Shown piece after piece: positions 6,050 through 29,299 of a stretch of 54,119 nt of DNA. Source of the DNA: a virus; IMG/VR virus record IMGVR_UViG_3300022939_001635, positions 1 to 54,119 of that record, one strand, 5' to 3'. Both the position numbers and the translations under genes were made by a program. The notes beneath the pieces are model-generated. The model was given only the letters and a program-made list of their open reading frames with translations. It did no database searches and was not told the DNA's origin. Each line of letters opens with the position of its first letter. Position 1 is the stretch's first letter.

Positions 6050-7215
6050 ATAAAATATTCCGTAAATTCTGGTACAATATGTATTAAACTTTGTTTTCTA
6101 CTTTTATCTAGTTGAAATGTGTAATCGATAAACTTGTCAAACTTATCGCTCCAGTCTTCTGCATACATATAATCAATTATGCCTTTTACTTTTGGAGTGT
6201 CTAAGTAAGGCATTAAATTTTCAAATGCTTTATCTTTAAGTTCAGGAGGTAACACTCTTATGTTAAGTTGCTCTGGATGATTTAAAATATTAAAATATAT
6301 TTTATGTTCATAAGGTAATGCCCACTCAATAAACTTATGTAAATGCAAAATATTGTACATTTGCACAGTACAGTGTATTTCAATATTTACTTTTCCTCTA
6401 TTTCTTACTTTTTTAAAATTTTGCTCAATTTTTATCCAATTACTTGGATATCTAATATATCTATCTAATGCTCCAATTCCGTCAATACTACAGTTTAATT
6501 GGATTTTTTTAAATTTATTCCATTTGTTTAACATTTTGTCTGGAATATTTGTTAAATTTGTATTATATTTTAATTTTATTTTATTTGATGTACCTTTTTC
6601 AATATAATAATCTAACAAACGATACTGTTCTTCGATAATTGTAGGTTCACCACCAGTTAAATATATTTCTTCAACCGAATCCGCTATCAATTCTAAATTG
6701 TCCCAAACCAAATCATTTGATGGCCAATCCATATTTTTTAATCTATTATACTCGCTTTCTTCTAGTGCATTTTCAACTAAGTGCCATTCTTTAACCCATT
6801 GATTACTTGCGTATGGATTGCACATACGACATTTTAAGTTACATAGATTTCCTAAACGTATATCAACATAACGTATAGTGAACGGTGCTTCTACAGTATA
6901 ATCTCTGTCTTGCGCCCATTTGTCATTCCAATTTTGTCTAGTGCTTGTTATACCAGCATCTTCTTCTCTAAAACAACGTGTACACATTTCAGGACGTTCG
7001 CCATTTAACATTTGTTGACGTATAGTTTTGTACGTTTCACTATTCCATGCTTCTTTGATGTTGTCTTTGTATATCCGATATCTTGTGCCATCTTCTTTGG
7101 TGATAAAATTCTTTCCAGGAGTGCTGTTACAGCATACACGTAAAATGCCACTGGCACTGGTTGCTAAACTCATCCACGGTAAAACACAAAATGTATCGCT
7201 AGGATTTTTTGTCAT
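6046..7215 (-). CDS. Radical SAM protein with N-terminal twitch-like Cys domain
   Basis: 389 residues and a good type member of the family. FCVLPW (Cys10), VCC (28-29), a segment AWNSETYKTIRQQMLNGERP typical of SPASM/twitch regions, CTRC (78/81) and EEDAGITSTR come first. The radical SAM motif CNLKCRMC is at 125-132, then SNQW, TGGEP near 192, SIDGIGALDRYIR, and the tail FIDYTFQLDKSR...VPEF. It overlaps the upstream cobalamin-type radical SAM gene and the downstream SGNH-like gene by 4 bases each. All expected cluster ligands are present. The substrate is unknown. Confidence 0.9.
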   Translation of the reverse strand: MTKNPSDTFCVLPWMSLATSASGILRVCCNSTPGKNFITKEDGTRYRIYKDNIKEAWNSETYKTIRQQMLNGERPEMCTRCFREEDAGITSTRQNWNDKWAQDRDYTVEAPFTIRYVDIRLGNLCNLKCRMCNPYASNQWVKEWHLVENALEESEYNRLKNMDWPSNDLVWDNLELIADSVEEIYLTGGEPTIIEEQYRLLDYYIEKGTSNKIKLKYNTNLTNIPDKMLNKWNKFKKIQLNCSIDGIGALDRYIRYPSNWIKIEQNFKKVRNRGKVNIEIHCTVQMYNILHLHKFIEWALPYEHKIYFNILNHPEQLNIRVLPPELKDKAFENLMPYLDTPKVKGIIDYMYAEDWSDKFDKFIDYTFQLDKSRKQSLIHIVPEFTEYFI

Positions 7216-8687
7216 GCTATGTCCTTATAATATGATTCTAATTTTTTCTCTAAAAAATGTAATTGTTTCTCATCCCATCTAACATTATACCCTAAATCAT
7301 TAGCAATTACACTTAATTCTTTTCTACGTTTTACTCTTACATCAAATGTTAGATCTTCAACAACTGTGCTTTTCCAAAACATCATATCTTTGTTATGCAC
7401 TGGCATATCATGCAAAGGAGAATCAGGAAGTATACCTAATGTTTGTCCTAAGTTAATATCTGCAACACTGCCGTTTGGGCCATCAGGATCAATTACACTG
7501 CTATTTCTATCTGCATAATATTTTAAAAATTTTATGTTTTCTTCATAATCTTCGTGTGTTTCTGTTGGATATCCAACTATAAACATTAATGTACAGTTTA
7601 TGTTATTCTTAAGTAATTCATCTATACTAAAATACATATCCTCGTTGGTAAATTGTTTATCCATGTGATTTCTAACATTTTCAGATGCAGATTCTATACC
7701 TATACTTGCCCAACGCATTCCTGCTTTTTTCATTAATTTGTAATCTTCTGCAGGACTTTGTCGTTCACTTCTTATAATAAACTGCCCACCCCATCTAATA
7801 GCTGCTTCTGGTTCCGGATTGTTTTCATGGTACTCTGCCATAACTTCGCAAAGTTCTCTAAATGCTTTCATACTACCGTTGATTAAACTATCGCTAAAAA
7901 AATGTGTTCTACTGCCATAAAGTTTTTTATTTCTAATTAATTCTTCAGCAATATTTTTTCCACTACGATACCTAAACTTTTTCCAAAAGGCACCGATATC
8001 GCAAAAACTGCAACGTCTAACACATCCTCTGCTACCAGTTAATGTAATTTTTTGAATACGCCCATAATCATCATAATAATCACTGTAATCAGGAAACGGA
8101 ATACTATCTAAATCGTCAATTTGATTATATGTAGTTGAGTTAATTCCTGGATAATTTAAATTTCCTTTTAAAAGTTCTACTAGTGCTAGTTCGCCTTCGC
8201 CGTCAATAAAATAATCAGCTAGATTTTGTTCCAACATAGTATCGCCATAGTCTTTTTTACCGCCCATTGTTACACCTAAGCCTGTCCCACCTAACACAAT
8301 TTTACTATCAGGCAACACTTCTCGTAACGACTTGCACAATATACTTGCTGATTTTTGACTGTTTTGACTAAACACACTGACTCCAATATACTCTGGTTGT
8401 AGTGGTGCTATCTTTTCTAAGACATAATCTCTATAGTAATCTAATAGTAAGTTGTATATTTCTTTATCTTGTGGATCGGCATGTATACCGCTATGCCAAT
8501 CTGCTAACAAAAAACTGTTTACTTTTTTACTGTCTTCTTTTCCAAAGTATTCTTCACTATCTCTAACAAGATCAAAACATCTACTTGTAAAACCATGAGG
8601 ATTTAGTGCTCCTTTTAAATAATAAATTGCAGGAGCAGGCACTCGTGTTTCCATTACAGGAGTGCTTATTAAAACAATATCAACCAT
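7212..8687 (-). CDS. Cobalamin-binding-type (B12) radical SAM protein
   Basis: 491 residues with a different architecture from the rest. Residues 1-190 read as a Rossmann-like B12-binding domain: a VDIVLISTP start, YIGVSVFSQN, a strand KIVLGGTG, and DYFIDGEGE before the core. The DxHxxG base-off motif is not evident. The radical SAM motif SRGCVRRCSFC lies near 216-228, followed by RYRSGKNIAEEL, and a later barrel strand ASIGIESAS. B12 radical SAM enzymes carry out methylations, ring contractions and related reactions at unactivated carbons. It overlaps its neighbours by 8 and 4 bases. It is the only enzyme of this class in the window and could supply a distinct step. The substrate is unknown. 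Confidence 0.82.
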   Translation of the reverse strand: MVDIVLISTPVMETRVPAPAIYYLKGALNPHGFTSRCFDLVRDSEEYFGKEDSKKVNSFLLADWHSGIHADPQDKEIYNLLLDYYRDYVLEKIAPLQPEYIGVSVFSQNSQKSASILCKSLREVLPDSKIVLGGTGLGVTMGGKKDYGDTMLEQNLADYFIDGEGELALVELLKGNLNYPGINSTTYNQIDDLDSIPFPDYSDYYDDYGRIQKITLTGSRGCVRRCSFCDIGAFWKKFRYRSGKNIAEELIRNKKLYGSRTHFFSDSLINGSMKAFRELCEVMAEYHENNPEPEAAIRWGGQFIIRSERQSPAEDYKLMKKAGMRWASIGIESASENVRNHMDKQFTNEDMYFSIDELLKNNINCTLMFIVGYPTETHEDYEENIKFLKYYADRNSSVIDPDGPNGSVADINLGQTLGILPDSPLHDMPVHNKDMMFWKSTVVEDLTFDVRVKRRKELSVIANDLGYNVRWDEKQLHFLEKKLESYYKDIA

Positions 8688-18097: not shown

Positions 18098-18644
18098 GCC
18101 ACATTTCCGGTTGCATAGGATCAATACTCAATTCATTAATATTTAAATGTTTTGGTTGATCAACAATCCATTTAATGTAGCTTGCAGCTACATCTATATC
18201 CATACACTTTCTATCTGGATGTTTTTTTTGGTTGTTGCTTAGTGTACCAAAACTGATATATGTGATTTTAGGGCCGCTTGCCCATACACCTGTTAATCCT
18301 AGTGTATTTGAATAATCACGCAATGCTTTCTTTTCTGCATTGTACAGCCAAGCACCGCCTTTTTTTACTCGGTCAGTTGTACTACCTATATTGATAATAT
18401 GACAGTTGTGTTTTTCTAACACACATTTTTTATAAACAATATCTAACAAACTGGTTTGATTAAATCTAAACAATGCACTGCAATTTATAAAAATATCGTG
18501 TGCCAATACTGCTTCTGCACAACGTTCCATATCTAATTTTTTACCAAAATCATAACCTGTTTCTCTGCTGATAAATTCAGCATTAGGATATATTTTTGCT
18601 AAAGATGCAGCAAGTCCTTCATTGGCATTACCTGTTATAATCAT
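18081..18644 (-). CDS. Short-chain dehydrogenase/reductase-like protein
   Basis: 187 residues, shorter than the usual 240-260. ITGNANEGL at residues 3-11 sits where the TGxxxGxG dinucleotide motif is expected (altered Gly spacing). HDIFINCSA corresponds to the NxAG strand, HIINIGST to the catalytic Ser strand, and YNAEKKAL (about residues 122-129) to the catalytic YxxxK. The C-terminal part after the active site is shortened. An NAD(P)-dependent oxidation or reduction of a sugar or alcohol is the family role, but the substrate is unknown. It overlaps genes on both sides by 17 bases, keeping it inside the radical SAM operon. Confidence 0.6.
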   Translation of the reverse strand: MIITGNANEGLAASLAKIYPNAEFISRETGYDFGKKLDMERCAEAVLAHDIFINCSALFRFNQTSLLDIVYKKCVLEKHNCHIINIGSTTDRVKKGGAWLYNAEKKALRDYSNTLGLTGVWASGPKITYISFGTLSNNQKKHPDRKCMDIDVAASYIKWIVDQPKHLNINELSIDPMQPEMWHEEDT

Positions 18645-19782
18645 TCATAACTCCTAAATCTATGTGATTTCCTAAAACATCAAAAAATCTATCTTGCTTC
18701 ATACTCTTTGGCGCACACAATCCACATCCACATGTTTGTTTAGGACAAACAACAGTGGGCAAAGTTCCAGTTTCCATTTGTGCTTTAAGATCTTCGATTA
18801 ATTTTTTACCTTCACTAATTTTACCTATACGTCCTCGTTTACCATCGAAACGTGCTTGACAAGTTTGGTGATGATAAATGCTGTCTGTTTGTTGTTCTAA
18901 ATGTAAGAAGAACCAGTTTACACTGCAATTCCATCCTTTGAATTCTCTAAAGTCTACAAAGTTGCTTTTGCGTGATTCACTTCCGTTGTGTAACAACATA
19001 TCCCTACTACCACAACACGGACGTCCGATACTGTTGCCAAGTTTTTTAGCATTCTTTACTACATCACCGGCAGCACTACTTGCATATAGTGCATCATTTT
19101 TTTGTTTCCAGTAGTTTTTCATCCATGCCAATTGTTCTTCGCTGTACTTGTGTGCAAATGTAGGCTTGCTATCAGGCTCTTCACCGATAACTCTTGGCAC
19201 AAAATCTACTTCATGCTGTCTTAAAAACTCGCAAAGTTCTACACACTCATCAAAATATTCAGCATGAAACATAACATTTACGCTAACTGTGAAATCAAAC
19301 ATACCACCTGCGTAATGAAACTGGAGAATTCTGTCTTTTACCTGTTGTTTAAGTTTGTTATCGCTTTCTGCATGATAACTTACCGTAGCATGACCAAAGT
19401 TATTCATTACAGCATAACCCATTTTTTCACTCATGGCACCATTAGTAGTAAGAGCAAATCCTGCTTCCCAACGATCAGCATATTTTTCTTCATAAGACTT
19501 ACGCAAGTATTCTGCAAAAGGTATAAAATTAGGATTTACAGTTGGCTCGCCTCCAGTAAAACCAAAATTTGCTTCTTTAAAATTTCTATACGTCATATAC
19601 AAGTCAGTATATTCAAATAAAAAATCTACATTGTTTTTTAGTTCTTCAAGCGTAGCATGTTTACTAAAATTGTCATGCCTATGTGCTGGACAGTATGTGC
19701 AATCGTAATTACACCGACGTCCTGTATCCCAAGTAACTTGAAAAACCTTACCTGTTAATAGGTCAATTGTGTCAAAACTCAT
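18628..19782 (-). CDS. Radical SAM protein with C-terminal SPASM-like Cys region
   Basis: 384 residues. The core begins at once: radical SAM motif CNYDCTYC at 24-31 and TGGEP near 78, then a LTTNGAMS strand and a VSYHAES strand. The C-terminal third is Cys rich: GRPCCGSRD, GWNCSVNW, HHQTCQARFDGKRGRIG, then VVCPKQTCGCGLCAPK. This resembles a SPASM-type double-cluster domain and is the fused counterpart of the split pair at 12569/12190. It does not have the N-terminal Cys domain of its neighbours. It follows a PP-loop gene with an 11-base overlap. Which molecule it acts on is unknown. Confidence 0.85.
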   Translation of the reverse strand: MSFDTIDLLTGKVFQVTWDTGRRCNYDCTYCPAHRHDNFSKHATLEELKNNVDFLFEYTDLYMTYRNFKEANFGFTGGEPTVNPNFIPFAEYLRKSYEEKYADRWEAGFALTTNGAMSEKMGYAVMNNFGHATVSYHAESDNKLKQQVKDRILQFHYAGGMFDFTVSVNVMFHAEYFDECVELCEFLRQHEVDFVPRVIGEEPDSKPTFAHKYSEEQLAWMKNYWKQKNDALYASSAAGDVVKNAKKLGNSIGRPCCGSRDMLLHNGSESRKSNFVDFREFKGWNCSVNWFFLHLEQQTDSIYHHQTCQARFDGKRGRIGKISEGKKLIEDLKAQMETGTLPTVVCPKQTCGCGLCAPKSMKQDRFFDVLGNHIDLGVMNDYNR

Positions 19783-20596
19783 TTATTTCCTTTATTACTT
19801 GCTGTACCCTGTTGTTTGCCCATTTACGTTCTTCGCACCACCAGCACTGTTCGCATTCTGGAATAAACATGCCATCTTTGTAATCTTTAAAATGTCCGCA
19901 GGCATCCTTTACAACATCGTGATGATTTATATCGCCTTCACAACTGCGTGTTGTGTTATACAAATCCAATATATTGTGTATATGATACTGTGCAACAATC
20001 CAATCTTTTTTAACAAATCTAAAAGGATGCACAAATGTAGTATTTACTTTGCCGCTGTAGAACCATAGATCTGTTAATTGTCCATCTTCTGCATCTTTGT
20101 CTCTGTTTGTCATGCGATCTTCACGTAAATCATCAGGATTTTTGCTGGTTGCATTATATACTGCATCTAAATTATATTCCCATCCTGCAAATTTATTAAA
20201 ACTACCAACAATAATTTGGTCTCCGCTACGGCCTTCTATCACAGGACCAATAACTCCATGTTCTAATTCAGGTGGAATATATGTTGTATACCTGTTTTCA
20301 ATAATATAAGGAAACATGTCTTTTAATTTGTTAAAAACTTGCATAGAAATATGCCCTTGCCAGGGCCTTGTTTCCCAACAACGTTGATATGTAATTACAT
20401 CAACTTTAGTGTTTAGATTGTAACGTTGAATAATACTACAAAGCAAATATGTTAATAACGCACTATCTGCTCCGCCACTGAGATTTACACCAACTCTTTG
20501 CCACTTGCTGTCAAACGGAATAGTAAGATGAGACACAGTATGTAGTAATACAGTATCAGCAATATTTTTATAAAGACTATTGTTTGCTTCATACAT
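19772..20596 (-). CDS. PP-loop ATPase with QueC-like Cys motif
   Basis: 274 residues. VNLSGGADSALLTYL near 37-51 is the PP-loop (SGGxDS) of ATP pyrophosphatases, which adenylate carbonyl or carboxyl groups. The C-terminus has SCEGD, then ECEQCWWCEERKW; one Cys plus CxxCxxC resembles the zinc site of QueC (7-cyano-7-deazaguanine synthase). Overall sequence is not plainly QueC, and relatives include NAD synthetase-like and asparagine synthetase-like domains. It is a paralogue of 21914-22762; the pair brackets one radical SAM gene. ATP-dependent amidation, nitrile formation or thiolation is inferred only from the fold. Confidence 0.7.
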   Translation of the reverse strand: MYEANNSLYKNIADTVLLHTVSHLTIPFDSKWQRVGVNLSGGADSALLTYLLCSIIQRYNLNTKVDVITYQRCWETRPWQGHISMQVFNKLKDMFPYIIENRYTTYIPPELEHGVIGPVIEGRSGDQIIVGSFNKFAGWEYNLDAVYNATSKNPDDLREDRMTNRDKDAEDGQLTDLWFYSGKVNTTFVHPFRFVKKDWIVAQYHIHNILDLYNTTRSCEGDINHHDVVKDACGHFKDYKDGMFIPECEQCWWCEERKWANNRVQQVIKEINEF

Positions 20597-21917
20597 TATA
20601 TACTAGTTCTCCGTCTACAAACTTAAAACGTTGTATATGATCATTGAAGTTTTGATTCCATAATGCGTCTGATTTAGGAATATACTTTAATAATGCTTGA
20701 TAATCTTTATTTGTGGCTTGGTGTTTCATAACATATTCTCGTACTTGCTCAATGGCTTGTAATGCACTGGTAATATCAGTCCACCATCCGTATTTTATTT
20801 CTTCATCCCAAACATAATTATACATTTCTTTGGTTGTAAGTATGTTTTTCCTGCGTTCTTTGTCTATTTTAATAACCGCATTCCTAGCGTTTTCAATTTC
20901 GTTTAAAGTAGGACCTCTAAATTTTAACATCATTACACTTGGATTTAAATATGCAGGTGTATAAACTATACTGCAATTTATGTAATCTAATTCGAGAGAC
21001 AAAAAACCACGCATAACGTCTTCAAATTCCATCAACTGATATACACTTGTAGTACATACCAAGTTGATATGACTGTGCTTGTTATCAACTGCTTTGAATT
21101 TTTCTATGTTTTCTTTTAACTTGTTCCAATCGCCTTGTCTAAAGTATGGATACAATCGAGGACCTGCATCTACACTTATCATTATATTACAATATCCAAA
21201 TTTTTTCAAGAGAAAACTGAGTTTTTCTGGATCAAAATCTGCATTAAAATTACTGTGAAATATAATTTTTATGTTTTTAGCATTTGGGTGTTCACTGAGT
21301 TTTTCAAGTGTAGGCAAAAACTGTTTTTGATATAGTACTTCGCCGCCTGCAAAATCAATGCGTTCCAAGTTAGGAAAGTTTTTGTTTAAATCTTCTGCTA
21401 TTTCCAATGCACGTTTAGTACTGATTTGCATCGTAAAATCGTCATCCATTGATGACCTATGCATACGTCCTGTAAGTTGATGCAATTGATATTTGTGATC
21501 TTCCTCATCGGGCTCATATCCTTTAAGTTTTTTCATCCAACCGCTACTAAACACTTGACTACAATGCAAGCACGCCATATTACAACTATGACTAAAACGT
21601 ATTTCTACTGTTTTTAAACCTTCAAAATCTACTTCACCTGTTTCTGGATTATAATGTTCGAGATCTGCTTCTTGTTCTTGACGCATACTTGTGCCGCTAC
21701 GGTCACGTTCTACATGCTCGCACATGTCGCAACCAAAACTCCATTCACCACGCATCATTTCTAATCTGTGCTTGCGGAATAGTTCATTGTTGTAAAACTC
21801 ACTGGGCAGCCAGGCATCATCTAAAATTTGCATTTTTTCATGCTGCTGCGGACAACTTGTTACAAAGCCATTTTTAAAGTTCAATCCACCTATTGTATAG
21901 TAGCAAGGTAAACTCAT
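20589..21917 (-). CDS. Radical SAM protein with N-terminal Cys domain, divergent GGEV
   Basis: 442 residues. The N-terminal domain has Cys5 and Cys22 (single, not CC) and GCDMC followed by RDRSGTSMR, with no PW motif. The radical SAM motif CNMACLHC lies near 112 with SSGW after it. The SAM-binding motif reads AGGEV instead of GGEP. SVDAGPRLYPYFR gives the family strand. The C-terminus is longer and lacks the LDxxR...P tail. It lies between the two PP-loop genes with 4- and 8-base overlaps, so it may act with them on one substrate. It is the most divergent member of the N-terminal-Cys family here. Confidence 0.83.
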   Translation of the reverse strand: MSLPCYYTIGGLNFKNGFVTSCPQQHEKMQILDDAWLPSEFYNNELFRKHRLEMMRGEWSFGCDMCEHVERDRSGTSMRQEQEADLEHYNPETGEVDFEGLKTVEIRFSHSCNMACLHCSQVFSSGWMKKLKGYEPDEEDHKYQLHQLTGRMHRSSMDDDFTMQISTKRALEIAEDLNKNFPNLERIDFAGGEVLYQKQFLPTLEKLSEHPNAKNIKIIFHSNFNADFDPEKLSFLLKKFGYCNIMISVDAGPRLYPYFRQGDWNKLKENIEKFKAVDNKHSHINLVCTTSVYQLMEFEDVMRGFLSLELDYINCSIVYTPAYLNPSVMMLKFRGPTLNEIENARNAVIKIDKERRKNILTTKEMYNYVWDEEIKYGWWTDITSALQAIEQVREYVMKHQATNKDYQALLKYIPKSDALWNQNFNDHIQRFKFVDGELVYNV

Positions 21918-22762
21918 AAATTCTCCAATAGAAAGCCATTACAATTATCTAATCCCCATTGCTTTTCTTGACAGAAAAAACAATGTCCGCACTCTGGAGG
22001 ATATTGCCTATTGTGTCTGTATTCTTCACCAAACTCTGCAACATCACCTTCGCAACTACGTGTAAGTTTTAGCAAATCCCACTGATTGTAATTATGATAC
22101 TGTGCCATTGTAAAGTTTTTGCGTAATAAACCAAATGGATTGATAGCAGGGCCGCTAATAGCCCAATCCCAATTGTCTTTCATATATTCTTCATTGCGGA
22201 ATGTAGGTTCGTCTTCAGTAGCGAACGGAGGATTCATTGTTATACCTGTATAAATCAAATCGATCTTATACCTATGCATTACATATTCTTGGAAATCCAA
22301 TGTGCATAATACATCACAATTTGCTTCTCTTGGTAATTTTGTAAACAAATGTTCTTTACCCAAACGTGTAAGCGGCACATCTTCAAACTCAGGAGGTAAA
22401 AATCCCCATACTTGTTCTTGTATGATATTTGGAAAACGTGCTTTTAGATAATTGTACACATCTTCTGCCATAGGAGCAAGCCAAGGTTTTTCTTTCCAAA
22501 AACGTACAAGTGTCATACAATAAATTTTATTATTATAATTGTTTTTTTCTATGTAATCACACAGCATGTATGTTAGTATACTGCTGTCTGCACCACCGCT
22601 TAAACTTACAAGTAAGTTTTTCGCATTTGGATCAAAATGCACTGGTAACCCATTTATTCTATGTATATCAGGATATGGACGAAAAAGCATTTCATAAGTT
22701 TTTATAAACTTTTCATCTTTATAACCTGATTCTAAATAGTCAAGATAATGTTTATCGTCCAT
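21914..22762 (-). CDS. PP-loop ATPase with QueC-like Cys motif
   Basis: 282 residues from the ATG at 22762, which has AAGGA eight bases upstream; the TTG one codon earlier is not needed. LLVSLSGGADSSILTYML near 51-67 is the PP-loop. The C-terminus has TRSCEGD and ECGHCFFCQEKQW, the same one-plus-three Cys pattern as the paralogue at 19772. The shared middle motif (AQYHNYNQWDLLKLTRSCEGD here, AQYHIHNILDLYNTTRSCEGD there, quoted in part) shows recent duplication of function. It is probably an ATP-dependent activating enzyme. Its placement between two radical SAM genes suggests joint action. Confidence 0.7.
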   Translation of the reverse strand: MDDKHYLDYLESGYKDEKFIKTYEMLFRPYPDIHRINGLPVHFDPNAKNLLVSLSGGADSSILTYMLCDYIEKNNYNNKIYCMTLVRFWKEKPWLAPMAEDVYNYLKARFPNIIQEQVWGFLPPEFEDVPLTRLGKEHLFTKLPREANCDVLCTLDFQEYVMHRYKIDLIYTGITMNPPFATEDEPTFRNEEYMKDNWDWAISGPAINPFGLLRKNFTMAQYHNYNQWDLLKLTRSCEGDVAEFGEEYRHNRQYPPECGHCFFCQEKQWGLDNCNGFLLENL

Positions 22763-24152
22763 CAAATATGTCCTTCATATCAGGAAATACTTCTGAAAAA
22801 CTGTTACCACGTTGAGCATCGCATCTTTGTAAAAATTCCTCCATCTCTGGCAAACGTCTACTCCAGTCTTCGCTTTCCATAAAACTTAACATGCCTTTTA
22901 GTCGTTTTATACCATAAGGTGCAGCATCAAACATGTCTTTAGTAATCTTGCCTTTGTGCCAAACAGGCACACCAAGTTCCCAGTTTTCTTCCCACCAAGG
23001 ATAAAATTCTTCATATTTCTTACGCACTTCTGCTTTAAACCATTCTGGTAATACTTTTACATTCAAGTGTGGCGGATGATACACAAAGTGATAATTTATT
23101 CCACCTGCACCAAATGGCCACATATTGATTTTGTTAAAGTTTTGTGTTAGTTTCCATTTTATAAAGTCTGGCAAATAATAAATGTTTAGAGCTTGTACTG
23201 CACAAGCAATTGTAACTTCTACATTATTGCTTGTTTCTTTATCTAATATATGAAATACTTCTTCTGTGCGTTTCCACTTACTTGGGTAACGAATATAATC
23301 ATTCATTTCATGTATGCTATCTACACTATAATGAAAACGCACTAATTTAAATTCTTTCCATAAATCAAATAAGTCTTCACGCCACTCTACACCATTTGAG
23401 TTATAACGCAGTTCCAAATCTTTTGCTATACCTTGACGTATTGCTTCTTCAAGTATTTCATAATGTTCTTCAATGATAAGACTTTCGCCGCCTGCAAAAT
23501 AAATTTGCTGCATATTTGGCATTTGCTCATAAAACTGTTCCCAGAACACAGGATTTTGCTTGTGCCAGTTGTAACTACTGCCATTGGTGCTGCCTTTGTC
23601 TTGCCATTGCATTGTTTCTTTTAAAGATTCATTTTTTACTTCTGGAAATATCTTTTTGTAGTCTTTAATCCATCCGCTTGAATCGTGTGGGCTACACATT
23701 ACACAAGCAAGTTGACATTTTGTACCAAAACGTAAATCAATATATGCTAATTGCGGTGGTACTTCTCCGTCCTCAGTTGTATTTGCAAGAAGTTCATCTA
23801 CATTAGTTCTTTGACTCCAGTATGCAGTTTCCCACATACGTTTGGAATTGTGTCCTGCTTCTTCTTCTTTGTAACACTTTAAGCAACTAGGTGGCTTTTC
23901 ACCGTTCATCATTTGCTTGCGCACATTTTTCATATATTTGCTGTTCCAAGCAGTTTGAAAATCTGTAACATTTAAGTTGTTTGGTTTGCCGTCATCTGTT
24001 TTGAGAATACCAACTTGTCCGCCGTGTTCTTTGTCATTGGTAGGGCCAACACTTGATGCATTTGCTGTACAACACACACGCATACTACCGTCTGGCCTTG
24101 TACTTAGATGCACCCAAGGAAGGATGCAGAATGTATCACTAACTTTAGTCAT
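22752..24152 (-). CDS. Radical SAM protein with N-terminal twitch-like Cys domain, GGES variant
   Basis: 466 residues, the longest sibling. FCILPW (Cys9), VCC (27-28), AWNSKYMKNVRKQMM, CLKC and EEAGHNSKR form the N-terminal domain. The radical SAM motif CQLACVMC lies near 151 with SSGW after it. The SAM motif is AGGES, not GGEP. SVDSIHEMNDYIRYP and the tail CDAQRGNSF...FPDM follow the family. Like the gene at 15630 it has extra segments before GGE and in the last third. It overlaps the upstream SGNH-like gene by 8 bases and the downstream PP-loop gene by 11. Likely active; substrate unknown. Confidence 0.87.
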   Translation of the reverse strand: MTKVSDTFCILPWVHLSTRPDGSMRVCCTANASSVGPTNDKEHGGQVGILKTDDGKPNNLNVTDFQTAWNSKYMKNVRKQMMNGEKPPSCLKCYKEEEAGHNSKRMWETAYWSQRTNVDELLANTTEDGEVPPQLAYIDLRFGTKCQLACVMCSPHDSSGWIKDYKKIFPEVKNESLKETMQWQDKGSTNGSSYNWHKQNPVFWEQFYEQMPNMQQIYFAGGESLIIEEHYEILEEAIRQGIAKDLELRYNSNGVEWREDLFDLWKEFKLVRFHYSVDSIHEMNDYIRYPSKWKRTEEVFHILDKETSNNVEVTIACAVQALNIYYLPDFIKWKLTQNFNKINMWPFGAGGINYHFVYHPPHLNVKVLPEWFKAEVRKKYEEFYPWWEENWELGVPVWHKGKITKDMFDAAPYGIKRLKGMLSFMESEDWSRRLPEMEEFLQRCDAQRGNSFSEVFPDMKDIFDGR

Positions 24153-24896: not shown

Positions 24897-25940
24897 TTAA
24901 TTATGTACGTAGTTTATTTCATTATGATATGCTTTGTTTTTTGCACATGTTCTAATACACCTAGTAAAATGCAACGGATGTGTAGGTTCCCAACTTGCTT
25001 CTAAAAGTTCACTAAACCATTCATGTTTCTGTATTTCTTTTATACTATGATGTTGTAAACTATTCCAATTTGGATCAAAGTGATTGAGTTTATCAACAAT
25101 TCTCTCTTTGTTTTTAAATGCACTATCCCACAAAAAACAACAAGGCCACATAGTTTGATCACTTGCTATAAAAATTTCATTTTCATGAATGTACTTGCAA
25201 ACAACAGTTTTTAATATTTCTTCAGTATTTTTTCTGTCTGCTTTATTTGCCTTATATTCTGTAATAAATTTATCTAAATCTTTTACAACATCTTTTTTAC
25301 TGTGTTCTTTTTTACCTGTTGTTGTAATTTTTTGTTCTACTTTGTTGTCTTTTTTTCCAAGTTTTGCAATCCAATCATGATAACTGTTGCGCATACCTGT
25401 GCGAGTTGCAAATTCAAATCCTAATACTGCTGCATTTGCTTTGGCTGTTGCTAGTTCATGTTCATTGTGATCAAATACAATGTATATCCAAGTGGCATGC
25501 TTTTCTGGTGCTGCTTGAGAAAATGCTATTATGTTACGTTCTACGATATTCCATTTGGTATTGACTCGATATATGTGATTTGTTTCTTTGTGTCCGTCTA
25601 TACAAAAATGTATGTGTACTAAACCAGGATGCTGTGCTGCTACATTTCCTAGTTCTGTCCACCAATTTGCTGTATTATACCCGCCGTTTGTGCTAACTTC
25701 ACAATAACCGCCCAAATCAGTTAAATATTTTATCATATCCAAAAAGTCAGGATTAACAATTGGATCTCCTAACACACCACAAAATTTAAATTCATATCCA
25801 GTGTAATCATGTGTAGGAAAAATACGTTGTAAATCTGCTAAACTAAAACTATTGATTTGTAGTTTGTCTTTGTTAAGTGTTCTAGCACAGCCAGGACAAG
25901 CTGCATTGCAATCACTGGTAATTTCTAGTTCTACTTTCAC
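24897..25940 (-). CDS. Radical SAM protein with C-terminal SPASM-like region (GTG start)
   Basis: 347 residues from a GTG at 25938-25940 that overlaps the upstream stop (GTGA), with GGAG ten bases upstream. The radical SAM motif CNAACPGC is at 11-18. The usual GGEP is replaced by GVLGDPI near 55, shared with the next gene upstream. STNGGY and IHFCIDG follow. The C-terminal part has CKYIHENEIFIASDQTMWPCCFLW and later RCIRTCAKN, which reads as a SPASM-like auxiliary cluster domain. It is a paralogue of 25937-27016 and both are unlike the N-terminal-Cys family. Function unknown. Confidence 0.82.
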   Translation of the reverse strand: MKVELEITSDCNAACPGCARTLNKDKLQINSFSLADLQRIFPTHDYTGYEFKFCGVLGDPIVNPDFLDMIKYLTDLGGYCEVSTNGGYNTANWWTELGNVAAQHPGLVHIHFCIDGHKETNHIYRVNTKWNIVERNIIAFSQAAPEKHATWIYIVFDHNEHELATAKANAAVLGFEFATRTGMRNSYHDWIAKLGKKDNKVEQKITTTGKKEHSKKDVVKDLDKFITEYKANKADRKNTEEILKTVVCKYIHENEIFIASDQTMWPCCFLWDSAFKNKERIVDKLNHFDPNWNSLQHHSIKEIQKHEWFSELLEASWEPTHPLHFTRCIRTCAKNKAYHNEINYVHN

Positions 25941-27016
25941 TTAAACTGCGCTCCAAACGGATCAAACTCTTTACCACATTTCATACTACACACTTTTAAT
26001 TTGCCATCAGCACAACTCGACTTGTTCCAACTGTTTTCTATGTTATCAAATATACCTGTGTCAAACACTGCACGTAATCCATGAGTCTTAGCACTGATTG
26101 CATCTTTGCCGCCTACAGCATCAATAAAGTCCCATACTTGTTCTACCTTAGGGTCTTTGTGCCACCACTTGTACATGCGTCCGGCAGTCCAACAACAAGG
26201 CATAGCAAGTCCTTCTGCTGTTATAAACAAGTTACCTTCGTCTTTTACTTTACATTGTATTTCAGCACGATCATAATATGCATCCATACTACCGTGTTTG
26301 TCTTTTACTTTGTCGTACTGTTTTATTGCATCATTTTGAAACTCTTCTTTTGGCTTAGATAACTTTTGTGTTTCTTTGCCTTTGCGATTTACCGCTTGAT
26401 GCGATTCTTTCTTTTCACTGCTGGCGGTGACAAATCTTCCTGTTTTCTTTTTTATAAATCTTTCACATCCCCAAGAATTTGCTAATGCTTCTGCTTCTTC
26501 AACTTGATGTTGGTTGTGTTCAAATATTAGAAAATCCCAACGTGCTCTTCCACCAGCATCTATAAATGCCCGCATATTGCGTTCTACATTGTCCCAGACA
26601 ACACCCTGCCTGTATAAATGATTAGTGTCACTAAGACCATCCACGCTGAAAATAACAGCACCCATTCTACCAAAGACTTTGGCCAATTCACGCCACCACG
26701 CTTCATCTTTTGCTCCTGCATTTGTATTCATACTGAGCCACATTTTACTGTTATGCTCTCTAAAGTATTTGAATATATCAAGTGTATCACGGGCAACAAT
26801 AGGATCTCCTAAGTTGCCACACATATACATAGTTTCAAGTTGTGCAATAAATTCTGGTTCAAAAATACGCTTACAATCATCTAAGGTTAATTCGCTTAAA
26901 TCAATATGTGGATTTAATGCTCCGCCATTTTGATTGCGATCACACATTGGACAACTTGCTTGACAATTTTGTGTGTTTTCTAAGTGAATAACACGTATAT
27001 CTTTATAATTATACAT
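25937..27016 (-). CDS. Radical SAM protein with C-terminal SPASM-like region
   Basis: 359 residues. The radical SAM motif CQASCPMC is at 18-25. GNLGDPI near 68 replaces GGEP. MNTNAGA and IFSVDGLSDTNHLYRQG follow in the barrel. The C-terminal third has IQCKVKDEGNLFITAEGLAMPCCW and later CADGKLKVCSMKCG, a SPASM-like Cys set. A Lys-rich linker (about 185-235) separates the two domains, as in its paralogue at 24897. It overlaps the 74-residue gene upstream by 8 bases. The radical SAM assignment is firm; the reaction is unknown. Confidence 0.82.
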   Translation of the reverse strand: MYNYKDIRVIHLENTQNCQASCPMCDRNQNGGALNPHIDLSELTLDDCKRIFEPEFIAQLETMYMCGNLGDPIVARDTLDIFKYFREHNSKMWLSMNTNAGAKDEAWWRELAKVFGRMGAVIFSVDGLSDTNHLYRQGVVWDNVERNMRAFIDAGGRARWDFLIFEHNQHQVEEAEALANSWGCERFIKKKTGRFVTASSEKKESHQAVNRKGKETQKLSKPKEEFQNDAIKQYDKVKDKHGSMDAYYDRAEIQCKVKDEGNLFITAEGLAMPCCWTAGRMYKWWHKDPKVEQVWDFIDAVGGKDAISAKTHGLRAVFDTGIFDNIENSWNKSSCADGKLKVCSMKCGKEFDPFGAQFK

Positions 27017-27233
27017 CGTATATCAACTTTACATCTTTACCAGGACCAGTTTTACTTGGCAAATCGCCATATTGCTCTATGTACCATTCAATAACTGCTT
27101 TGTACCAATTTTGACTATTATGATGTGCTTTTTTGTTAAACTGCCAAATGTTATTATTCGTTGCTTGCATGGTACTTAGAGCCCTTGCACTTTCTTTTTG
27201 CAATTGCCTAACATCTAAATCATTTATATCCAA
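27009..27233 (-). CDS. Small unknown protein (74 residues, TTG start)
   Basis: 74 residues from a TTG at 27231-27233, the only start that keeps the frame close to the upstream gene; AAAAGG lies ten bases before it. The protein has no cysteine, is rich in Asn, Gln, Trp and Tyr (IWQFNKKAHHN, WYKAVIEWYIEQYG), and ends with PSKTGPGKDVKLIYDV. I recognise no family. It overlaps the methyltransferase-like gene by 14 bases and the radical SAM gene by 8, so it is a coupled operon member. It could be an adaptor or a substrate of the adjoining enzymes, but nothing in the sequence proves either. Confidence 0.6.
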   Translation of the reverse strand: MDINDLDVRQLQKESARALSTMQATNNNIWQFNKKAHHNSQNWYKAVIEWYIEQYGDLPSKTGPGKDVKLIYDV

Positions 27234-28260
27234 TTTTCATAAACCTTTTGTATCTCGGTAGTTCTAACTCGCCTTCGTATAAAACTTTACTCATAGGTGA
27301 TTTTTCACTAAATTCATCTAATGTTTTACTACAATTTACATGTTCTTCTATTTCAAAATAATTATTTCCTTGCACTATTATTAGTTGTTTATCCAATATA
27401 TTATCATACCAGTTTTTATAATCTTCTATATGTTCTGTGCTTGTATTGATAACAGTATTAGGATAACCCCATAGTGTTTCAGTTGTTCCGTCTAATTTGT
27501 TTACATCATATATATGTTCTTCAAACATAATTTCGTGAATATCTTGTGTTGAAGCTTTAAACTTCCAATCTTCTAACACCCATTTTTTATTAAACGTTTC
27601 TGCAATTTTCCAAACAGTAGGATCGCTATCAAAACTAACAATTTTATTTACAGGTATTTTACTTTCAAAAAGCATTGTCGCTAGTGTAGCATACCAACCT
27701 GCACATAAAAATACTGTGCCTAAATTTAAGTCTAAATTTTCAACTGTATTTACTAACCAAAGTTTACTTTTTATTTGACCCTGACTAAGACAATCTTTAT
27801 CAAATTTAACTTTATTTGTAACTAAATCCTTTAAACCTTTTACAAAATAGCTATCGGTATATTTTTGTAAAAGTTTGAACATACTCCAAATATTATCATC
27901 TAAAACAAGTTTACGCAAATCTTCATTGTCTAACAATCTAAACAAACTGTGCATGTTGTCTTCAATAGTGGCTTTTCGTAAATCATCATTGCCTGGTAGT
28001 AATCTGAACAAACTGTGTAAATTATCTTCAAGAATTGCTTTACGCAGATCTTCAACTTCGCCAATACAGCGTTTATTGGTAATCAATCTAAAAATACTAT
28101 GAACATTTTTTTCAACTACAATTTTTCTTAATTCTTCATTATTGCAAAGTCTAAAAATACTAGATAAATCTTGATCAATGTATGCACGTCTTAAATCGCC
28201 AAAGTTATTGTCGTTTGGATTTAACAGTTCAAATCTATCTAAAATTTCATATAGTTCCAT
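27220..28260 (-). CDS. Repeat-bearing SAM-dependent methyltransferase-like protein
   Basis: 346 residues from the ATG at 28260, with AAAGGA upstream; a TTG one codon earlier is open. The N-terminal 130 residues hold five repeats of the form LRKxxxEDNxxSLFRLL. The C-terminal half looks like a class I methyltransferase: GTVFLCAGWYATLATML near 183-199 fits motif I, VSFDSDP near 210 fits the acidic end of strand 2, NTSTEHIEDYKNW near 268 fits motif IV, and LIIVQGNNY follows. The repeats may form a helical docking surface. It overlaps the glycosyltransferase-like gene upstream by 14 bases. The target of methylation is unknown. Confidence 0.6.
   Translation of the reverse strand: MELYEILDRFELLNPNDNNFGDLRRAYIDQDLSSIFRLCNNEELRKIVVEKNVHSIFRLITNKRCIGEVEDLRKAILEDNLHSLFRLLPGNDDLRKATIEDNMHSLFRLLDNEDLRKLVLDDNIWSMFKLLQKYTDSYFVKGLKDLVTNKVKFDKDCLSQGQIKSKLWLVNTVENLDLNLGTVFLCAGWYATLATMLFESKIPVNKIVSFDSDPTVWKIAETFNKKWVLEDWKFKASTQDIHEIMFEEHIYDVNKLDGTTETLWGYPNTVINTSTEHIEDYKNWYDNILDKQLIIVQGNNYFEIEEHVNCSKTLDEFSEKSPMSKVLYEGELELPRYKRFMKIGYK
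27871..28197 (-). repeat. Five tandem 17-residue repeat units in the methyltransferase-like gene
   Basis: Five in-frame units, at residues 23-39, 44-60, 72-88, 94-110 and 115-131 (counted from the TTG at 28263), share the pattern [DE]LR[KR]xx[IV]xx[DK]NxxS[ILM]F[RK]L. Unit spacing is 21-28 residues, so linkers vary while the core is fixed. At DNA level units three and four are most alike, suggesting recent duplication. The repeat likely forms paired helices. Confidence 0.85.
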
Positions 28261-29299
28261 CAAACTTTTCCTTTAACCAGTCAAAGTCGTTTATCTTTTT
28301 AAGTGCTTCTATATCATTTCTAAATCTTGCTCCATAAGCAGCACCTGCTTTGGCACCTTTTTTTGCAAACTCTGAAAATTCTACATCAGGCTTAGTATAT
28401 GTACACCATACACGCAACCTTGTGTTTGTTTCATCGTCTTTTTGTCTATCAATAATTTTACTCGACAATTTTACGCACTCTCTAAACGCACCTTTCCATG
28501 TGTTAAACGGATCACTATTAAAAGCAGTAATATTTGATACTTTATTTACGGCTACAAATTTATTACTAATACTTGTAGTCATATCAGGTTTTGTCAAATC
28601 CATTTCAATAGTTTGAGTTCTTGGTAGTAATTTTACGCCGCCGTATCCATATATCAATCCGTTAATAGGATTTTCACTACGCCATACATGAACTGCGTCC
28701 CAATTGTGTGCTTCAGGCGAATAATTAAAATGCCAATAATCAGTTAGTTGTGCATCGCCATCAACAACATAAAACATTCTACTATTACAAAGTTTAGCAG
28801 CTTCTATGTGTGCTTGGTGTATTCCTTTTACACCGTGTACACGTTTTACATCAGGAAAACGTTCTAGTATACGTTCATAATTTTCATCAGCATTTGGTTC
28901 ATTGTAACTGATAAACACTGCGTCAAATTTTTCTATACGAGGTCTACTAGCAACAATAGGTACAAATTTTTTGTTTACATAAAATCTTGACTTTAGTTCA
29001 CCGGGTCCGTGATGACTATTTTTTGGCATTAATGCAACACCGTCATAAAAGTCTTCTGTATAATACGGCCGTTCATTAATAAAAACGTGTGTCATGTCCT
29101 GACTATATTCATCAGGCACATATTTAAAATCAAAATTTTCGTGCACCACTAAGTCATGATAAACAATCCAAACAAATTTTGTTAAACATTTTTGTTTAGC
29201 TTCTTGTACTGTTTGAGCATGTTTTGCAGTAGGAAAACGTTTTTTTAGATTCCTGTAACTGCTCCAGTTTGATTGACCAATTAAATATATATCATACAT
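28247..29299 (-). CDS. Glycosyltransferase-like protein, first gene of the operon
   Basis: 350 residues. AVFISYNEPNADENYERI near 146-163, then VHGVKGIHQAH, and MFYVVDGDAQLTDYWHF near 195-211 give a GT-A type nucleotide-sugar fold with DGD as the DxD motif. NPINGLIYGYGGVKLLP and AFRECVKL are shared with the protein at 33827-34744, so both belong to one family. The N-terminal 140 residues are extra and not recognised. It is the first gene after the sigma-70 promoter at 29306-29334, and its ATG coincides with the predicted transcription start, with no ribosome site upstream. Sugar donor and acceptor are unknown. Confidence 0.6.
   Translation of the reverse strand: MYDIYLIGQSNWSSYRNLKKRFPTAKHAQTVQEAKQKCLTKFVWIVYHDLVVHENFDFKYVPDEYSQDMTHVFINERPYYTEDFYDGVALMPKNSHHGPGELKSRFYVNKKFVPIVASRPRIEKFDAVFISYNEPNADENYERILERFPDVKRVHGVKGIHQAHIEAAKLCNSRMFYVVDGDAQLTDYWHFNYSPEAHNWDAVHVWRSENPINGLIYGYGGVKLLPRTQTIEMDLTKPDMTTSISNKFVAVNKVSNITAFNSDPFNTWKGAFRECVKLSSKIIDRQKDDETNTRLRVWCTYTKPDVEFSEFAKKGAKAGAAYGARFRNDIEALKKINDFDWLKEKFDGTI

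Follow-up and report, generated by a model that had tools for sequence, protein, structure and literature searches.

Analysis of a marine virus record 54,119 bases long (hereafter the window) supports a functional coupling between a PP-loop ATPase, PP-A, and a radical SAM enzyme carrying the motif GGEV, since the two genes are strictly adjacent in related viruses and, in some of them, fused into one reading frame. A second ATPase gene, PP-B, lies on the other side of the GGEV gene. Judged by sequence profiles and a structural model, both ATPases are members of the zinc-type QueC superfamily, in a branch that so far has no name. A preliminary description of this DNA had considered it possible that the radical SAM enzyme and the ATPase work together, and the adjacency and fusions bear this out.

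The genes concerned are listed in Table 1. Neighbouring ORFs overlap by 4-14 bp and form a single minus-strand operon extending in both directions past the trio. Since the PP-A ORF overlaps a radical SAM ORF on either side, i.e., that of the GGEV protein and that of the protein directly downstream, the trio is part of a longer array. Eighteen radical SAM-type genes lie within positions 1180-33827; of these, the gene at 7212-8687 belongs to another type. Structural and tail genes are present in the same window, and jumbo phages (e.g., PA5oct and 121Q) give distant matches to the largest structural protein encoded there. For PP-B, an alternative TTG start at 22765 would give 283 aa; the ATG at 22762 agrees with homologues and with the preliminary description. 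Next to the gene of the 74-aa protein, a methyltransferase-like gene (27220-28263, minus strand) encodes an N-terminal part of approximately five imperfect repeats (DLRKAVLEDNxHSLFRLL-like), the number of which differs among relatives.

Table 1. Features of the array around the PP-loop ATPase genes (window coordinates).
Feature	Coordinates	Strand	Remarks
SDR-type oxidoreductase-like protein, 187 aa	18081..18644	(-)	kept in some of the arrays
Radical SAM protein directly downstream of PP-A	18628..19782	(-)	weak likeness to peptide maturases
PP-A, QueC-like PP-loop ATPase, 274 aa	19772..20596	(-)	start ATG
Motif positions within PP-A (aa)			SGGADS 40-45; PF(x)4K 191-197; S-C-E 218-220; CxxCxxC 248-254
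GGEV radical SAM protein, N-terminal twitch type, 442 aa	20589..21917	(-)	start ATG; NF033640 E 1.2e-55
PP-B, second QueC-like PP-loop ATPase, accessory paralogue	21914..22762	(-)	282 aa from ATG at 22762
Radical SAM/SPASM protein with GGES	22752..24152	(-)	NF033640 E 6.8e-127
Radical SAM protein, one of conserved upstream pair	24897..25940	(-)	
Radical SAM protein, other of conserved upstream pair	25937..27016	(-)	
Small protein, 74 aa, highly conserved	27009..27233	(-)	without PHROG match

PP-A and PP-B are true paralogues, as the preliminary description had recognized, with 31% identity over 252 aa (E 1e-43), and both carry SGGADS and S-C-E...CxxCxxC unchanged. Among 88 nonredundant relatives, the fixed positions of SGGxDS are 97-100% conserved; Lys197, which is equivalent to QueC K165, is present in 100%, as are Cys219, Cys248, Cys251, and Cys254, the four cysteines of a predicted zinc site. 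Conservation in the same set is 93% for E220, 98% for P191, and 84% for F192. The same arrays also contain a third subtype of PP-loop protein, shorter at 216-235 aa (L005:14690-15340, L007:15401-16069, L018:12991-13698, and L020:14712-15395).

Pfam and NCBIfam searches gave only sub-threshold PP-loop matches for the window's PP proteins. A profile of the 88 relatives, aligned with hhalign to nine canonical QueC proteins, matched over the full domain (Prob 97.65, E 2.6e-12, 204 columns). When the same profile was compared with seven single E. coli PP-loop proteins, QueC aligned over 197 columns and MnmA over 178, while TilS, TtcA, NadE, GuaA, and AsnB aligned around the PP-loop only (22-55 columns). 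The AlphaFold model of PP-A (pLDDT 92.3, pTM 0.92) pointed the same way: QueC was the top match by VIA-align (Z 14.6 and 14.4), followed by Cap9 and TilS (13.1), NcsA (12.7), and QatC (12.4), and Foldseek ranked Cap9-CdnD first (E 4.7e-6). Since the scores of QueC, Cap9, TilS, and NcsA fall within ~2 of each other, the fold alone does not settle which reaction is catalysed and would also be compatible with sulfur transfer or tRNA chemistry. Sequence searches for solved relatives returned none with single proteins and weak matches (E > 0.1) with the profile. The C-terminal part of one distant relative, on the L056 contig, exceeded the cut-off of the QueC model PF06508 (25.8 bits).

Membership in the superfamily does not make these proteins canonical QueC. 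Neither PP-A nor PP-B matched PF06508 over its cut-off. In a tree, the PP family was separate from QueC (SH-aLRT 99), although long branches make the deep placement of some rows unsure; the relation to QueC that the preliminary description had seen is supported by profile and fold. QueC is characterized by SGGxDS, C(x)8CxxCxxC, YxQxHxxE, VPxRN, and YPDC, and its residues Y35, R99, Y131, and Y189 are essential in vivo (PMC13329287), while deazaguanine recognition rests on a Tyr and an Asp matching those of YPD (PMC13279940). Across the 88 sequences, Y35 is replaced by Arg (84%), R99 by Asp (79%), and Y189 by Glu (93%), and the positions of E. coli Y131 and D133 are variable, with the loop positions, the weaker part of this comparison, mapped through a single profile alignment. 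Since a canonical model match is lacking, the branch is separate, and four essential residues are replaced, PP-A and PP-B are not canonical QueC, having lost its CDG-recognition and catalytic residues, and these losses speak against the deazapurine parallel drawn earlier. The product of the array is probably not preQ0.

Genes of deazapurine synthesis are nevertheless present in related viruses. We surveyed 20 larger viral records, all of which carry the PP family and any of which may be fragments, and found FolE over its cut-off in 14; the same 14 contain a QueE homologue (E ~1e-50 or better). Full-length canonical QueC occurred in none of the 20, with one partial match over the cut-off (G018); QueD was over its cut-off in three, and TGT was matched in none, although DpdA may evade the TGT model. 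In the ten regions that were read, FolE and QueE lie side by side or a few kb apart, except for one in which the distance is ~9 kb; in L257:5304-6883 and nine similar regions (L258-L266), the FolE-like and QueE-like genes are together and away from the array. FolE was not found in the window, which is itself the whole 54-kb record. Since FolE and QueE occur together in these records, a source of CDG within the phage is possible, as judged from the genes. Phage FolE and QueE, with host QueD, could then supply CDG, and PP-A and PP-B could stand in for the missing QueC, either to produce a nitrile or an amide destined for DNA or to couple CDG to a protein in the manner of Cap9. The closest folds are indeed those of QueC and Cap9, and the CE and PF(x)4K of Cap9 recur in the PP family. 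However, besides the replaced residues and the scarcity of QueD and TGT, the FolE-QueE pair is distant from the array, QueE matches 125 records of a phage collection without any PP match, and no ORF of the window starts with the MG motif of Cap9 and QatC partners, so we regard this reading as quite unlikely. It is more doubtful still that 7-carboxy-7-deazaguanine made by phage FolE and QueE is attached by the PP enzymes and the radical SAM array to a peptide, protein, or sugar; if true, viruses would have their own equivalent of bacterial deazaguanylation, extended by radical tailoring.

The link between PP and GGEV genes was examined from both sides. Among the loci that had been gathered through their PP genes, 44 of 45 GGEV genes adjoin PP, and in the remaining one (L036) PP runs off the contig; by comparison, GGEP radical SAM genes in the same loci (n = 221) stand beside PP ~50 times. 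Since this set had been chosen by PP, a second scan took the radical SAM subfamily as its starting point. Among its 80 loci, PP was directly downstream in 57, fused in six, cut off by the contig end in three, and absent from 14; the loci counted are related by descent and do not amount to independent observations. All 14 members without PP have at most 43% identity to the GGEV protein of the window and lie in other gene contexts; at 45% identity or more, every decidable member has PP directly downstream or fused. The fused ORFs encode 827-873 aa, in which both the GGEV and the PP domain are intact. Fused members occupy two places on the PP tree, and we favour two origins of the fusion, although a single origin was not rejected (AU p 0.089).

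Seen from the ATPase, the association is looser. A GGEV gene is present in 32 of 71 nonredundant PP loci. The most widely shared PP neighbour is the GGES radical SAM gene, with an orthologue in 61 of the 71. In three loci (L025, L028, and L035, around 6549-7990), what is left of the GGEV gene encodes 190 aa, lacks CxxxCxxC, and stands alongside an intact PP-A, and the PP-B-like gene carries SSGADS, an apparent decay of the PP/GGEV unit in one lineage. Since PP occurs without GGEV in many loci and beside a remnant in these three, the partnership is not obligatory for PP. PP-B, in turn, is lacking or reduced to a remnant in a number of loci (e.g., L018, L024, L026, L029, and L031). Since PP-B diverges in the tree before PP-A and most other viral members, the duplication appears to be old rather than local, and PP-B an ancient, dispensable paralogue; its absence from many otherwise similar loci weakens the earlier suggestion that the ATPase was duplicated to serve two steps.

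The partner itself, correctly placed between the ATPase genes in the preliminary description, is a member of N_Twi_rSAM (189.2 bits vs. the NF033640 curated cut-off of 170) with the motif CNMACLHC, and it alone among the window's radical SAM proteins contains GGEV. Its orthologues form a discrete group, scoring at least 452 bits in viral loci vs. ~66 bits for the next paralogues. The structural model (pLDDT 92.7) is closest to anSME, BlsE, CteB, SkfB, ChlB, and DesII; viperin and MoaA are close, and SuiB scores lower. QueE was absent among the 50 structural matches listed for this model, and the QueE model was not among the profile matches of the protein. The parallel with QueE drawn in the preliminary description is not sustained. 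The GGEV enzyme is better described, from profile and model, as SPASM/twitch-like, and since its structural neighbours include peptide-, sugar-, and nucleoside-modifying enzymes, all three chemistries would be compatible with it.

Peptide chemistry would agree with a RiPP-like maturation: a phage peptide or a tail or receptor-binding protein, e.g., the 74-aa protein, would be the target of SPASM/twitch radical SAM enzymes acting with PP-loop ligases. The peptide enzymes anSME, CteB, SkfB, and ChlB nearest to the GGEV model (with BlsE alongside), the weak peptide maturase likeness of the protein downstream of PP-A, the conserved 74-aa ORF within the operon, the structural and tail genes nearby, and the action of Cap9, and probably QatC, on protein N-termini are all consistent with this. 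The sugar/nucleoside enzymes BlsE and DesII and also viperin, however, score about equal to the peptide enzymes, and the 74-aa protein is conserved over its full length without a variable core and occurs in 43 of the 113 loci examined (34 of 49 bearing GGEV), which makes such maturation unlikely. The 74-aa protein is nonetheless a candidate substrate, carrier, or subunit.

PP relatives are encoded by at least 472 uncultivated viral contigs in IMG/VR. Single-sequence searches of that collection gave 38 and 13 loci in which reading frames were kept and gene order was largely kept; this conservation of frames and order is far above chance. By tblastn, PP-A, PP-B, and two other family members found nothing in 50,697 phage records. 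Seven bacterial MAG contigs encode relatives, two of which were shown to be phage-like. A bacterial origin was rejected for L054 and L055, whose contigs carry genes for a T4-like DNA polymerase, UvsX, major head, and baseplate; these contigs (regions L166-L173) were assigned to Chloroflexi and Acidimicrobiaceae genomes, most likely through misplacement of phage sequence. L056, on a Bdellovibrionia contig, looks chromosomal, judged by its neighbours: in the region L056:5578-9281, the PP member stands beside genes, named by eye, that resemble CysC, CysD, and CysN of sulfate assimilation and a sulfotransferase, and a similar sulfotransferase-like gene occurs in L060. Overall, the branch appears to be almost confined to uncultivated large T4-like viruses, and the biosynthesis that it probably serves would be widespread among uncultured viruses of the ocean.

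Radical SAM arrays have been noted in marine phages: one T4-like genome has 12 radical SAM genes (PMC5332604), and pelagimyophages differ in the radical SAM cassettes of their host-recognition cluster, which lie beside LPS genes (PMC7029224). The latter, together with the sulfotransferase- and sulfate-assimilation-like genes flanking the bacterial relative, would suit a PP enzyme that resembles the sugar amidotransferases WbpG and PseA and serves a pathway for surface sugars or tail-fibre glycans, with a role in host recognition or superinfection exclusion. We consider this improbable: the WbpG-type motif CxxC(x)6CxC (PMC13329287) is not seen in the PP family, a glutaminase subunit was not recognised in the operon, and the L056 neighbours are those named by eye.

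We give somewhat better than even credence to a reading in which PP-A adenylates and ligates a carboxylate in a step consecutive with the radical step of the GGEV enzyme, within a phage modification array. The acyl-adenylate/amide mechanism is drawn from family membership and the fusions. The GGEV enzyme would make or modify a molecule, and PP-A would adenylate its carboxylate, or act just before GGEV, and join the activated carboxylate to an amine, be it ammonia, an amino sugar, an amino acid, or a peptide, creating an amide-type bond. Where the two are fused, the steps would be channelled. PP-B would be an older paralogue that the array can do without, and it might pair with the GGES radical SAM enzyme to act on a related substrate. 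The two-step pathway may form the core of the large modification array beside the structural and tail genes. Literature searches found neither this branch of the QueC superfamily nor any PP-loop/radical SAM pair described for phages. The branch, which counts at least 472 viral members, now has a firm radical SAM partner; the natural fusions (~830 aa) make the chemistry testable in one protein, and that chemistry would reveal the purpose of the large radical SAM arrays in ocean phages.

Comparison with known systems places PP-A close to, and apart from, several characterized enzymes. PP-A resembles QueC in its Rossmann-like PP-loop fold, SGGxDS, four-Cys zinc-type site, and the Lys165 equivalent, while the inner spacer of the Cys motif is 28 residues in PP-A vs. 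eight in QueC. Cap9 of type IV CBASS is characterized by CE ahead of the zinc cysteines and PF(x)4K (PMC13329287), both of which the PP family shares. However, the spacer in CE(x)nCxxCxxC is longer in the PP family, the substrate motif Y..DC of Cap9, with its CDG-recognising Tyr and Asp (PMC13279940), is not kept, and a CD-NTase gene was not recognised near PP genes by inspection of neighbours. QatC, of qatABCD, shares with PP-A the QueC core, the loss of the YPDC residues, and a zinc-type site, and differs in being ~400 aa long with N- and C-terminal extensions for which PP-A is too short. The PADLOC QueC and QatC models left the window proteins unmatched and gave a weak QueC match for L054 and L056. 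Literature searches on the NF033640 family name found no published function for the GGEV subfamily, which belongs to N_Twi_rSAM but is set apart within it as a discrete group linked to a PP gene.
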